Source: Synergistaceae bacterium
GTDB lineage: Bacteria; Synergistota; Synergistia; Synergistales; Aminobacteriaceae
Length of the DNA: 64,000 nucleotides
Assembly (NCBI GenBank): GCA_017446055.1
Contig: JAFSRQ010000146.1
Coordinates: 62,001 to 126,000 of the forward strand
Reading direction: 5' to 3'
Every line of letters begins with the position of its first letter. Positions within the stretch are counted from its first letter, which is position 1. Both the position numbers and the translations under genes were made by a program. The notes under the pieces are model-generated. The model searched no databases. It was not told where the DNA came from and saw nothing but the letters and a program-made list of their open reading frames with translations. Below, one piece after another: positions 3,008 through 48,247 of the stretch.

Positions 3008-3673
3008 ATGCTGTCTCCAAGAATCGAGGACTACTTAGAGGAGCTGTTCCTTCTCGAAAGCACCGGCAGAAAAATTACCGTAACAGACCTTGCCGACCGT
3101 CTCAAAATCACAAAGGGTACAGTAACCGCAACCGTGCAGAAACTTGTTGACCTTGAGCTGGTCAATCATGAGAGATACGGCAACCTCCATCTGACTGACG
3201 CAGGTCGCAGAAGGGGCATGACAGTTTTCCACAGGCACGAGGGCTTCAGGGCGTTCTTCCACGAAATGCTTGGGCTTGACCGCGATCATTCGTCCGATAT
3301 GGCCTGCGAGATGGAACACTATATCGACAGCGTTACGGAAGACAGGCTGTATGCCCTGCTCGAATACTTCAGGAAGGCACGCGCTGAACATCAGCCTTGG
3401 GTTGACGAGATATTTCTTGCCATCGAGAAGCCCGTCCTGATTGTGCCGGTGCCTTTGACCTTGTGCGAACCGGGTGCGGAGGGTGCTATCCTGAGAATTA
3501 CTGCTGACGAGCCTTTGAGGAAGAACCTTGCGAAGAAGGGCTTTACGATTGGCTCAGAGGTCAGGTTAATCGACAACGACAGCGAGATTTTCACCTGCGG
3601 AATTTCTCATGAGACCGTAAATCTTCCCCTGAATGAAGCCGCTGCAATTTGGATTCAGCAGCCCTCGAAATGA
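3008..3673 (+). CDS. DtxR/MntR-family metal-dependent transcriptional regulator
   Basis: Cytoplasmic repressor sensing Fe(II) or Mn(II). Residues 1-65 form the winged helix (IEDYLEELFLL, VTDLADRLKITKGTVTATVQKL); residues 70-130 form the metal-binding dimerisation domain (FHRHEGFRAF, CEMEHYI); residues 140-221 form a FeoA/SH3-like domain (LRKNLAKKGFTIGSEVRLID), giving the long three-domain form. Metal ligands look mixed: Asp8 and the upstream His as in MntR, but a Cys at the position of DtxR Cys102 before the E-H pair. It is divergent from the RND pump operon and has its own promoter. The family is certain; which metal it senses and what it controls are not. Confidence 0.92.
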   Translation: MLSPRIEDYLEELFLLESTGRKITVTDLADRLKITKGTVTATVQKLVDLELVNHERYGNLHLTDAGRRRGMTVFHRHEGFRAFFHEMLGLDRDHSSDMACEMEHYIDSVTEDRLYALLEYFRKARAEHQPWVDEIFLAIEKPVLIVPVPLTLCEPGAEGAILRITADEPLRKNLAKKGFTIGSEVRLIDNDSEIFTCGISHETVNLPLNEAAAIWIQQPSK

Positions 3674-3678
3674 TTTCA

Positions 3679-3701
3679 CCCCCGGGATTCATGGCCGGGG
3701 G
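3679..3701. terminator. Hairpin between convergent genes, weak terminator
   Basis: CCCCCGG and CCGGGGG form a perfect 7-bp GC stem with a 9-nt loop, just after the regulator stop codon (3671-3673) and before the 3' end of the convergent ligase gene (3713). There is no clear U-tract on either side, so it may stabilise 3' ends rather than act as a strong intrinsic terminator. Confidence 0.45.
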
Positions 3702-3712
3702 ATATGTCTTCC

Positions 3713-4846
3713 CTATTGAAGCCTGAGTTTGTCCCGCTCAAATACTGAGGAGTAATGATACATACACATGTAGCTCAGGTAGAACAGGCCGTTATGCCCG
3801 ATTGTGTCCGCCATCGACATGAACAGCTGAGTGAAGAACACCATGTTGCACAGCCCACGCACGCGCCTGTCATCAATGCGGCTGATTCCCTTCACGAGAG
3901 TGATCCAGTATATGCAGCGTCCAAGCATCCCTAAAAGCCCTGTGCGGAAAAGGGAGTCGAGAATTTCGTTGTGGGCATGGTTGAAGCCATACAGTATTTC
4001 TCCGATCTTTTCGTCTGACTTTATGCCTATACCGAAAATCGGACTCTTGCTGAAAGTGTTAAGAGCCGCGTCCCATAACATTGTTCTCCCGGTGAAAGTT
4101 ACGCTCTTGTGGAGGGTGTTGACGATGAAGTCCTCGAACAAGTACTGAATGCGCATTACCGTGATGCTCAGGCTGACAATCTGGGGGCTGAGAAAGAATA
4201 CCCATGTGCTTATGCGGTTGAACCAGGCAAAGTTTGTGAATATCATAACCCCTGCGGCAACGGCTATCATTCCGAGAAAACCTCCGACTGCCCACGTGGC
4301 TATAGTACAGAAAAGAGAGGCGGCAAGCGAGGCATATACCATGAAGTCAAGCCTGCGCTTTACCGTGAGACTATACATAGCGGCCATGCATATCAGCGGG
4401 AGAGTATACAGCACAAATCTGTTATCCATTCCGAGAAAGAAATTCGTGGCGACACCGTACATCCCTTGAGGATAAGCAATCACTGTATATGTGTTTATCG
4501 CGACGAGAACGAACAGGAAATCCCTAGTCAGCAGGAGCATTTTTTCCCTCAGAACGGGCATAAAATACTCCGCAAGGAATGACCCCCCAAGCGCAGCCCC
4601 GGCATATTGACCCCATCTCACAATGTCAGAAAAACTATGAGGATTTATCAGTGTGGACATGAGCATAAATCCCTGGAAAACAATGGTACTCCATAACAGC
4701 TTTGAGAATTTTCTGCGCTCAAGGAGGAGAAGAGCCGCGCAAATCAGAACAGCCGCGAGTTTTCCTGCCCTGAAGAAGTTATCTATGCTGGGGAACTTCT
4801 TGAAGTACCACGATTCACAATAGGGGGAAAGCAGGAGTACATACAC
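3713..4846 (-). CDS. O-antigen ligase / Wzy-type polymerase family membrane protein, probably phase-variable
   Basis: Polytopic inner-membrane protein that ligates or polymerises undecaprenyl-linked glycans. It has about ten hydrophobic segments, and the signature of the Wzy_C/WaaL family lies in the last third: FTGRTMLWDAALNTFSKSP, FGIGIKSDE and HAHNEILDSLFRTG. The 377 residues begin at a GTG (4846) that has an AGGAAAGGA site upstream. A better start exists: ATG at 4926, 10 bases after the stop of the M20 peptidase gene and behind GTGAGGA. From that ATG the frame runs through a G11 tract (4882-4892) and ends at TAA 4863-4861; 12 or 9 Gs would fuse it in frame to this body. So expression is probably switched by tract length, with the GTG as a fallback. 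Ligase versus polymerase cannot be decided. Confidence 0.85.
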   Translation of the reverse strand: MYVLLLSPYCESWYFKKFPSIDNFFRAGKLAAVLICAALLLLERRKFSKLLWSTIVFQGFMLMSTLINPHSFSDIVRWGQYAGAALGGSFLAEYFMPVLREKMLLLTRDFLFVLVAINTYTVIAYPQGMYGVATNFFLGMDNRFVLYTLPLICMAAMYSLTVKRRLDFMVYASLAASLFCTIATWAVGGFLGMIAVAAGVMIFTNFAWFNRISTWVFFLSPQIVSLSITVMRIQYLFEDFIVNTLHKSVTFTGRTMLWDAALNTFSKSPIFGIGIKSDEKIGEILYGFNHAHNEILDSLFRTGLLGMLGRCIYWITLVKGISRIDDRRVRGLCNMVFFTQLFMSMADTIGHNGLFYLSYMCMYHYSSVFERDKLRLQ

Positions 4847-4881
4847 TAGTCCTTTCCTGCTTATAGTCCAATGTTCCCTGT

Positions 4882-4892
4882 CCCCCCCCCCC
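4882..4892. repeat. Homopolymer C11/G11 tract at the 5' end of the O-antigen ligase gene
   Basis: Eleven consecutive C on the plus strand (G on the coding strand). It lies between an ATG with a good ribosome site (4926) and the ligase reading frame. At 11 the upstream frame terminates after 21 codons; at 12 or 9 it reads through into the ligase. Such tracts are classic slipped-strand phase-variation sites in bacteria. Confidence 0.85.
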
Positions 4893-4936
4893 TAATAGCG
4901 CGATTTACTGTGCAGGCATCGCTCATCACAAAATCC

Positions 4937-6166
4937 TCACTTATCACCGGCCATCATGAGAGCGAAAACTTTTGCGTTGTTCACTAGGTAGGCAATCTCT
5001 GTGTACTCGTCAGGCTGGTGCGCTACCCCATCGCATTCCTGCGCCCACACAACAGCAGGTATACCCTTCCTCCTGAAGAACACCGCGAAAGTCCCTCCGC
5101 CAACTCCCCCGCACTTAGTCTCAATACCCAAGACTTCACGCACACTTTTCACCAGCAATTTGCACACGTCAGACTCAGGGCTTGTAGGTTCGGCAGCGTC
5201 TGACCTGTCGATCTCAAGCTCAACCTTCACTCCCGTCCTTGTCTCAACGTCAGCAACAATCCCCCGCACGATTCTTTCAGCCTCGTCAAGCGACTCACCA
5301 GGTAACACACGGCAGTCAAACTCGAAGACTTCACGGCCGGGTACGATATTCACCGCCGGAACATTAGCGGCTCTTTTTGTCGGCTCAAACGTGGAGAACG
5401 GCGGGTCAAATACATCATTGGCCTGCATGAATCTCTCGTGCAATGCCCTGTCCACCTCACATGCGAGAATGTTCGCGGCGCGGCAGGCGTTGATTCCGTG
5501 ATTGGGATATGCGGCGTGTGATTGCTTTCCTGTTACCGTGAACTTGAGCCGCCACACTGCTTTTTCCGCAACCTCGATGAAGTCCCCCGCGTCATTCCCG
5601 CCGTCAGGAACCAGCACCAAGTCATCAGCCCGGAAAATGTCGCGCTCTATCAGCTGTTCGAGGCCGTAATGACTGCCCAGCTCCTCATCTGCCACAAACG
5701 CGAGAAGCACAGTGTATTCCGGCGTAATCCCCGCGTCCTGCAACGACTTCAGCGCAAAGAGGGACGCTGTGAGGCACATTCCGTTATCGCTCACTCCCCT
5801 GCCGTAGATACGCGAGCCTCTGACTTCTGGCTTGAAGGGGTCAAGTGTCCACGCTGAACGGTCGCCTTCAGGGACTACGTCAATGTGTGAGAGTATGCAC
5901 AGACGCCGGGACTTTCTGCCGGGGTATTCCAGGAACAATGAAGGCCGCCTGCCTGAGGGGGCTTTGTCATCGTCAACATGTTCAACCCTGATAGTAATAT
6001 CCTTCAGCCCAAGCTCATCGATGATTTTAGCCAGCTCGATAATTTTCGCGTCCTCGCCTGTGCCGCCGCTGTGGGGTGATACTGCCGGGACAGAACACAA
6101 GCGTATCAATGCCTCAGTCATAGCATGTTCAAGCCTGCCTGCTGAAGCTAATATTTCGTTCTTCAA
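4937..6166 (-). CDS. M20-family metallopeptidase / deacylase (ArgE/DapE-like)
   Basis: Zinc-dependent amidohydrolase or dipeptidase of the M20 family, cytoplasmic. Over 409 residues it shows the metal and catalytic motifs LSHIDVVPEGD (His and Asp), YGRGVSDNG (bridging Asp), FVADEELGSHYG (Glu-Glu), a dimerisation domain containing KQSHAAYPNHGINA, and a C-terminal metal His in DGVAHQPDEY. The start is TTG at 6166 behind AGGAGG. It lies 44 bp after rho and 10 bp before the inferred ATG of the O-antigen ligase, so these may be one operon. The exact substrate (acyl-amino acid, succinyl-DAP or dipeptide) is not readable from sequence. Confidence 0.88.
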   Translation of the reverse strand: MKNEILASAGRLEHAMTEALIRLCSVPAVSPHSGGTGEDAKIIELAKIIDELGLKDITIRVEHVDDDKAPSGRRPSLFLEYPGRKSRRLCILSHIDVVPEGDRSAWTLDPFKPEVRGSRIYGRGVSDNGMCLTASLFALKSLQDAGITPEYTVLLAFVADEELGSHYGLEQLIERDIFRADDLVLVPDGGNDAGDFIEVAEKAVWRLKFTVTGKQSHAAYPNHGINACRAANILACEVDRALHERFMQANDVFDPPFSTFEPTKRAANVPAVNIVPGREVFEFDCRVLPGESLDEAERIVRGIVADVETRTGVKVELEIDRSDAAEPTSPESDVCKLLVKSVREVLGIETKCGGVGGGTFAVFFRRKGIPAVVWAQECDGVAHQPDEYTEIAYLVNNAKVFALMMAGDK

Positions 6167-46444: not shown

Positions 46445-47293
46445 CTAGTGCCGCAGAAATTTCTTGTAGAACCACTCCCGGAAGAAACCGGGCATCAGCG
46501 CAACGAACGCCTGACCCAGTCCGCTCACAAGCAAGTCCGTGAACGATATTAGCCCATCACGCCAAAAGCCTATCTTCAGTGCCAGCGATGAACACGCAAG
46601 ACGTATTCCGCCCCTCCTCGCGTAGAAATCCTTGCTCACCCTCATCATGACAAGCATCTTCTGAACGTTATAGACCCCGCCCCCCTTGTCAGTATATTCA
46701 TGTATTATCCTTGCCTGAAGATCATAGTCCTCGTACTTGTACACATCACGGTAGCTTCCGATTGCTATTATGTCCGACTTCCTGAACACCATAGCAGGGT
46801 GTCTCATCGGGCTTCTCCGGCGGGCAAACTTCCGGGCCTCTTCGGGTGTCTCTGGCAGGATGACATGTGCGGTTACGTTCGTTATGTCCCCCTCGAACTC
46901 GTCAACATTGCAGCCTACCGTTGTGATTTTGGGGTACTTCCTGAAGATTTCGGACTGTTCCTCGATTCTTGTCGGCAGGGAATAATCATCGGCATCCATT
47001 CTGGCGACAAACTCATTGCGGCACATCGGCAAGGAATCTCTGAGAGTAGGAGCGATTCCCCTGTTCTCCGGGAAATATTTCACCGTGAAGAGTGATGCGT
47101 TTGATGACTTGTAGCGGCTGATTATACCGTTCATCTCATCACCTACAGGACCGTCAACAGCAATGAATATCTCCTCAGGCGGAACGGTCTGGTTTATCAT
47201 GCTGTCAACCGCAAACTTGAAGTATTCGGGCGAGTCTTTGCCGTAAACCGGGATAAGCACACTGTACACAAAATCATGGGCTGAGTCTGACAT
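46445..47293 (-). CDS. GT2-family glycosyltransferase (intact paralogue)
   Basis: Transfers a sugar from a nucleotide donor, probably for surface polysaccharide. The 282 residues form a GT-A fold: VYSVLIPVYGKDSPEYFKFA, MINQTVPPEEIFIAVDGP, the NRGIAPTLRDSLPM segment, and the metal site ARMDADDYSLPTR (DxD-like); the C-terminal third (DLLVSGLGQAFVALMPGF) is amphipathic and may touch the membrane. Start is ATG 47293 behind GAAAGGGG. It is closely related to the neighbouring frameshifted copy (47394-48247), including upstream sequence, so the two arose by tandem duplication. At the place of the neighbour's G12 tract this copy has GGGGGGCGGGG, an interrupted and stable version. Confidence 0.9.
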   Translation of the reverse strand: MSDSAHDFVYSVLIPVYGKDSPEYFKFAVDSMINQTVPPEEIFIAVDGPVGDEMNGIISRYKSSNASLFTVKYFPENRGIAPTLRDSLPMCRNEFVARMDADDYSLPTRIEEQSEIFRKYPKITTVGCNVDEFEGDITNVTAHVILPETPEEARKFARRRSPMRHPAMVFRKSDIIAIGSYRDVYKYEDYDLQARIIHEYTDKGGGVYNVQKMLVMMRVSKDFYARRGGIRLACSSLALKIGFWRDGLISFTDLLVSGLGQAFVALMPGFFREWFYKKFLRH

Positions 47294-47393: not shown

Positions 47394-48247
47394 CTACTTC
47401 CGAAGGAACGTCTTGTAGAACCACTCCGTGAACGAAGCCGGCATTATCGACACAAACGCCTGGCCGAAGCCGCTCACTATGAAATCTGTGAAGGAGATGA
47501 ACCCTGTCCGAAGAAAGTATGCCTTCATCTTCAGGCTCGAAACAGTTAAACGAAGTCCTCTGCGCCGCCTGTAGTAGTCCTTGCTGACCCGCATATACGT
47601 GAGAACTTCCTGTACGTTGTATACCCCCCCCCCCCGTTACGCATATTCTGCAAGATACGAACAACTAGGTCATAGTCCTCGTACCTGTAGACATCCCGGT
47701 AATTCCCGGCCGCCATTACAGCAGACTTCTTCACCAGAAATGTTGACTGCCTGAAGGGGCATCTCCTCCGGGCAAACTTCACGACTTCCTCAGGTGTCTC
47801 CGGCATAATCACGTGTGAGATTACGTTCGTGATTTCGCCCTCGAACTCGTCAACGTTGCTTCCCACGCCGCTCAACTCCGGGTGCTTCTCGAATACGGCA
47901 AATTCCTTCTCCATTCTCTCCGGCACTGAATAGTCGTCAGAGTCCATGCGTGCGATGAACTCGTTACGGCAAAGCGGCAGAGCATCACGCAGAGTGCGAC
48001 CCTGCCCCCTGTTTTCCTTGTAGTGCTGAATCGTGAAAAGGTCTCCGTATTCCTCCCTGTAGCCGTCAAGAACCCTCTGCAGGTCTTCACCTATAGGGCC
48101 GTCAACAGCAACAAGGATTTCCTCAGGCGGTATAGTCTGGTTGATCATGCTGTCGATTGCTGCCTTGAAGTACTCGGGAGAGTCTTTGCGGTAAAGAAGG
48201 ATAAGGACGCTGTAATCATGTTTTCGGTCTTTGTCGGGCAATAACAC
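47394..48247 (-). pseudogene. GT2-family glycosyltransferase, frameshifted at a G12 tract; probably phase-variable (OFF)
   Basis: The first 205 residues (SVLILLYRKDSPEYFKAA, MINQTIPPEEILVAVDGPIG, ARMDSDDYSVPER, YRYEDYDLVVRILQN) are an intact GT-A domain matching the paralogue at 46445. After NMRN and a G12 run (47624-47635) the frame leaves the family and ends 28 residues later. In the +1 frame the paralogous C-terminus resumes exactly: VYNVQEVLTYMRVSKDYY ... SGFGQAFVSIMPAS ... WFYKTFLRK, stopping at 47394. With 10 or 13 Gs the protein would be whole, so this looks like an ON/OFF contingency gene caught OFF rather than a dead gene. Start is GTG 48247 or TTG 48241 (GGTGAG upstream). Confidence 0.88.
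47624..47635. repeat. Homopolymer C12/G12 tract inside a GT2 glycosyltransferase gene
   Basis: Twelve consecutive C on the plus strand (G on the coding strand), encoding a Gly run at the position where the intact paralogue has Lys-Gly-Gly-Gly-Val-Tyr-Asn. Twelve shifts the frame; ten or thirteen keep it. Confidence 0.93.

Follow-up and report, generated by a model that had tools for sequence, protein, structure and literature searches.

The O-antigen ligase/polymerase gene described here is very probably a simple-sequence contingency locus, a phase-variable gene switched by the length of a G tract, as judged from the DNA sequence and its comparison with related genomes. It lies on the minus strand of the window, the whole stretch of 64,000 nucleotides that was analysed from a Synergistaceae bacterium. 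In the mechanism that we propose, this accessory Wzy_C gene would be transcribed with the rho-peptidase genes, and translation would begin at ATG 4926 and pass through the G tract. Slipped-strand changes would alter the tract by one or a few Gs, so that one length class in three (9, 12, 15) would yield the full membrane enzyme and the others peptides of 20–37 amino acids. The assembled G11 state would be OFF, save for possible weak initiation at GTG 4846. The accessory O-antigen ligase/polymerase would be present in a cell at some times and missing at others, and in a fraction of the population O-antigen would be ligated or polymerised differently. The ligase switch would belong to a genus-wide poly-G set that includes surface and glycan genes among others; in most of its members TVMGYAAWWHTAC lies 5' of the tract. 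We consider a frameshift switch the best reading because the frame logic holds, because tracts of this class show no bias towards in-frame lengths, and because length varies among orthologous tracts.

The ligase locus and its reading frames

The features of the locus, in window positions, are the following.

3008..3673, plus strand: convergent dtxR-like gene (PF01325/PF02742), by synteny the right-hand neighbour of the putative ligase insert
3679..3701, no strand assigned: hairpin-like CCCCCGG...CCCGGGGG, between ligase and dtxR
3713..4881, minus strand: body of the Wzy_C O-antigen ligase/polymerase gene (PF04932, E 2.2e-13; frame test)
4844..4846, minus strand: alternative GTG start, within the first hydrophobic stretch and at residue 28 of the 12-G product
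4882..4892, minus strand: G11 tract, separating ATG 4926 from the body of the ligase gene (sequence, and frame test with 7–15 Gs)
4897..4911, minus strand: flank motif copy of the ligase, ACAGTAAATCGCGCT, 4 nt 5' of the G run (motif discovery; 6.7 bits)
4924..4940, minus strand: ATG start (4926–4924) with the Shine-Dalgarno-like GTGAGGA (4940–4934), overlapping the peptidase stop
4937..6166, minus strand: M20 peptidase gene (PF01546, E 2.9e-34), next to rho in relatives too

The peptidase gene ends with TGA at 4939–4937, and ATG 4926 follows 10 nt downstream on the minus strand. With the 11 Gs of the assembly, the frame opened by this ATG comprises 21 codons and then stops. In silico translation with 7–15 Gs separated the possible lengths into three classes. 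The frame stops after 20–22 codons with G8, G11 or G14 and after 35–37 codons with G7, G10 or G13, while G9, G12 or G15 give a product of 403–405 amino acids that includes the entire ligase and extends to 3713. The frame is thus on at 9, 12 and 15 Gs and off at the other lengths. The Wzy_C match (PF04932) reaches 50.7 bits, with a curated cut-off of 31.7, and a comparison of the protein with PDB sequences returned zero matches. Wzy_C covers both ligases (WaaL) and polymerases (Wzy), and the gene is referred to here as a putative ligase/polymerase. The genome encodes three more Wzy_C proteins, a long one with a 676 aa open frame and two that are short.

A preliminary description of this DNA had already named an O-antigen ligase/polymerase, in agreement with a Pfam score above the cut-off, and had placed ATG 4926 with GTGAGGA 10 nt after the peptidase stop, coordinates that proved exact. 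The stop after 21 codons with 11 Gs and the joining of the ligase frame with 9 or 12 Gs were both reproduced when 7–15 Gs were translated, 15 Gs behaving likewise, and the GTG at 4846 is present in the sequence with AGGAAAGGA as described. The central proposal of that description, a frameshift switch at the G tract, is supported by the frame logic, by the random phase across loci and by the length differences between orthologues.

Peptidase and ligase are probably carried on one transcript, together with rho. In three relatives (L009, L012, L014), a convergent dtxR lies within ~50 nt of the peptidase stop, with a hairpin-like CCCCC...GGGGG between the two genes; in a fourth (L008), the gap between peptidase and dtxR measures ~820 bp and is filled with other sequence. 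Relatives without the ligase carry an element like the hairpin at 3679..3701 directly 3' of the peptidase. Judged from this synteny, the inserted segment between peptidase and dtxR comprises the ligase gene, its ATG and its tract. A search of the 60 nearest genomes gave no ligase orthologue, the matches in relatives being distant (27–30% identity), and in the genome collection searched the sole hits were two partial matches, both distant and from other phyla.

MKINKYFLAY and VKINKHFLMY are the N-terminal residues of the two closest homologues, and they align with WTISRKGLVY of the post-tract frame. Their starts fall ~8–10 residues upstream of the GTG 4846 position and similarity ends there, the first 12 residues from ATG 4926 having no counterpart in homologues. 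Because both homologues begin further upstream, proteins of this type would normally start upstream of GTG 4846, which favours such a start for the ligase as well. The preliminary description had made its proposal depend on similarity upstream of 4846 in homologues; this was found for 8–10 residues in two distant homologues, and further upstream it was absent.

Poly-G tracts in the window, the genome and the genus

Each additional base lowers the number of G runs in the window ~4-fold until G7, of which there are 3; beyond this, one G11 and one G12 are found with nothing between. Exact 8-G matches number 9, compared with 1.2 expected, and the ligase G11 is a homopolymer beyond chance length situated in a reading frame. 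The source genome, probably assembled from a metagenome, comprises 149 contigs, is 85% complete and may have tract lengths off by one. It shows a bimodal distribution, with 80 runs of G7, 5 of G8, 3 of G9, 4 of G10, 4 of G11, 6 of G12, 7 of G13 and 2 of G14. This amounts to 26 runs of G9–G14 with a peak at 12–13. Such runs number about 25 in the genome, the ligase G11 among them, and most are preceded by the motif described below. Tract-bearing genes of the same genome encode GT2 glycosyltransferases, TPP enzymes, SDR and CotH proteins, LRR and beta-helix proteins and lipoprotein-like leaders, a set typical of surface contingency loci.

Runs of G9 or longer occur in 43 of 43 genus genomes, with 2 to 59 per genome. 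The number differs between species of the genus, as seen for G019, G020 and G021 versus G027, G032 and G062; G019 and G020 are examples of tract-poor genomes and the latter three of tract-rich ones, a contrast that might help to trace a factor accompanying the tracts. A 3-kb stretch of one locus (L048, G000:C107:21900-28800) has three poly-G tracts in adjacent genes, which encode a TPP-enzyme-like protein, an SDR and a member of an unknown family; in the assembly, all three tracts are out of frame. The Synergist-CTERM sorting signal TIGR04564 was detected in 50 of 61 genomes searched, the source genome included, and in 0 of 14 control genomes, on which basis the genome is assigned to the Synergistota.

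The second tract of the window belongs to one of two tandem GT2 glycosyltransferase genes.

46445..47293, minus strand: tandem GT2 paralogue, tract position broken by C (GGGGGGCGGGG, 46675–46685), in frame
47394..48247, minus strand: GT2 glycosyltransferase gene with the second tract (PF00535), full length with 10 or 13 Gs
47624..47635, minus strand: second poly-G tract, G12, inside this gene, out of frame as assembled

The 13-G product shares 60% identity with the tandem paralogue, gap-free at the tract, and the interrupted tract of the paralogue looks like that of a locked-on relative. Two GT2 genes from different species (L041 and L122) carry a tract at a shared position just before a conserved YLDDDDEW, with lengths of G9 and G14.

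Frame phase was counted for tracts embedded in coding DNA, from 100 nt upstream to 250 nt downstream, in the source genome, in G031, G032 and G034 and at a few other loci. Only 12 of 51 coding tracts of G9 or longer are in frame, consistent with the one third expected for random phase (p = 0.18), whereas 102 of 109 G5–6 runs (94%) are in frame under the same rule. The coding strand carries G in 62 tracts and C in 4.

Orthologous tracts were compared in two families. Relatives of the gene L048:807-1994, a family with zero Pfam matches, were found in 10 genomes, and in most full-length members the tract has stayed at one codon position while its length ranges from about 9 to 14. For an amino-acid permease, 30 species were compared: 18 carry a C-terminal tract of 9–18 Gs in the gene, and 12 lack it. 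A mobile cassette carrying the tract was considered for this permease and set aside: the tract-less orthologues encode nearly the same residues at the site, several with Gly-Gly codons, which argues that the tract grew in place. In the permease orthologues (L192–L221), the tract sits at the extreme C-terminus, and several species show an apparent start codon of the next permease within ~20 nt; tract length might therefore also set translational coupling. Across loci and orthologues, the frame of this class of tracts is not fixed, the ligase itself being without an orthologue in the relatives searched. The support for phase variation comes from comparisons between loci, paralogues or species, with one genome per species.

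Several other explanations for the ligase tract have to be weighed. It is improbable that the ligase is always translated from GTG 4846, with the ATG and the tract serving only as a short leader ORF through which coupling or reinitiation adjusts expression. This GTG has a good ribosome site (AGGAAAGGA) in front of it and opens a frame of 377 amino acids, but it is located inside the first hydrophobic stretch, at residue 28 of the 12-G product, and the two closest homologues start 8–10 residues further upstream. A leader role would moreover be impossible for the other tracts that lie deep inside genes. We hold it to be very improbable that the gene is really always in frame and its tract length was misread in sequencing or assembly. 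Homopolymers are error-prone and the genome is fragmented; nevertheless, long runs are found at one and the same codon in independent species, phase is random over the 51 loci while the G5–6 runs are almost all in frame, and one-base errors would not produce a bimodal excess of G11–G13 runs.

The absence of an orthologue in relatives and the out-of-frame state of the assembled gene would also be expected of a frameshifted pseudogene. We judge this extremely unlikely, however, given 377 open codons downstream, an intact Wzy_C domain, and a one-base change that restores a single 404-codon frame from a well-placed ATG. A further mechanism would be transcriptional or ribosomal slippage at the G run, which would yield a fixed share of full-length protein from DNA of stable length. 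The G run could act as a slippery site, and the strong preference for G on the coding strand is in line with this. In contrast, orthologous tracts vary in length, and the motif is shared by intergenic tracts, of which some appear to lie in promoter spacers on the opposite strand, pointing to the DNA level; slippage on RNA or the ribosome is highly unlikely. A switch by tract length in the DNA remains the reading that we prefer.

A motif 5' of the tracts

Motif discovery in the 40 nt upstream of 97 tracts identified T-[ACG]-[AC]-G-[TC]-A-A-W-W-H-T-A-C (T-V-M-G-Y-A-A-W-W-H-T-A-C), which is located on the G strand, 3–7 nt upstream of most tracts. Its log-likelihood ratio is 280, compared with 60–74 for shuffled sequences, and the words TACGTA (18 versus 0.4 expected) and TCAGTA (12 versus 0.3 expected) are enriched upstream of tracts. 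The motif is found in all three reading frames, in non-homologous genes and at intergenic tracts. In two genomes outside the training set, 71% of 21 tracts score at least 6 bits, compared with 0% of 147 G5–6 runs and 2% of shuffles. Half-and-half cross-validation with one tract per homology cluster (64 clusters) placed 52% above the 95% level of the shuffles (p = 4e-13).

The motif also follows the presence of a tract. The median motif score of permease orthologues is 10.2 bits for tract-bearing and 0.2 for tract-less members (p = 2e-4, uncorrected for phylogeny). Of the 43 genus genomes, 20 contain a strict pattern of motif plus G9, versus 1 of 137 other genomes of the order; the same pattern read backwards was found in one genome. 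Scores of at least 8 were obtained upstream of 47% of tracts and at 1.8% of random places; downstream of the tracts, the share is 8% on the same strand and 4% on the reverse one. With scores of 6.7 bits for the ligase copy and 3.1 bits for the GT2 copy, the ligase is a moderate and GT2 a weak example.

Several origins of the motif were examined and rejected. Gene homology does not account for it, as it survives the restriction to one tract per homology cluster and is present in all reading frames. A hairpin is not indicated, with a folding energy only ~1 sd below shuffles and half-sites that lack pairing covariation. An antisense -10 element would suit only the intergenic, promoter-like class, the coding tracts having no partner TTGACA. 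The motif is not a trait of any G run, being absent from G5–6 runs and from the G9–G11 runs of two other-family genomes, where scores are mostly below zero. Viral spread of motif plus tract found no support in IMG/VR, with 3 matches versus 4 for a scrambled control.

The motif TVMGYAAWWHTAC is compatible with a selected context that raises slippage, with a protein-binding or methylation site, or with a mutational precondition for tract growth. More tentatively, and with considerable doubt, TVMGYAAWWHTAC at 3–7 nt 5' of the G run might be a cis-acting element through which a dedicated factor of the genus sets, targets or creates tract instability, the switches then being jointly controlled and not a product of passive slippage. 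Should the motif prove functional, contingency loci may owe their mutability to a specific DNA signal, perhaps also to a protein, and the cause of tract instability would become testable with reporter constructs.

Relation to known phase-variable systems

Poly-G phase variation has been described mainly in pathogens, among them Campylobacter, Helicobacter and Neisseria, and the set reported here extends across a genus of uncultured Synergistota. Among open-access papers, the terms used returned zero reports of phase variation in Synergistota. The comparisons that follow draw on the searched passages of the cited papers. In Campylobacter jejuni, poly-G contingency loci have been catalogued with PhasomeIt (PMC6321876), and the similarities include long coding G runs, surface and glycan-modification genes, frame-switching by length and many loci per genome. 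Here, however, the phylum is different and most tracts have an upstream motif, which goes unmentioned in those passages. Homopolymer phase variation in Helicobacter canadensis (PMC2823697) involves tracts of G8–G20 with length ranges determined at the read level, and as in our set these tracts are situated within genes, in promoters and at C-termini; the lengths given here, in contrast, come from assemblies. A shared motif next to tracts is likewise unreported in the searched passages of that paper and of a 2025 review on phase variation in general (PMC11868660). Vibrio cholerae O1 (PMC3441752) also varies its O-antigen within a strain by phase-variable biosynthesis genes, although here the locus consists of a single, isolated Wzy_C gene, flanked by peptidase and dtxR, in an uncultured member of the Synergistota.

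Several intergenic tracts resemble the promoter-spacer tracts of the Neisseria porA type (PMC3639595), in which poly-G/C lies within the promoter, a likeness that covers the intergenic class only, as the ligase tract is translational. Candidate promoter-spacer switches are the intergenic tracts L040, L046, L112, L132, L139, L143, L144 and L163. On the other strand, tracts of the L040 type read TTGAC, poly-C and a TATAAT-like sequence at a spacing of ~20, with the -10 element overlapping the motif, a layout that would match the expectation for promoter-spacer phase variation.
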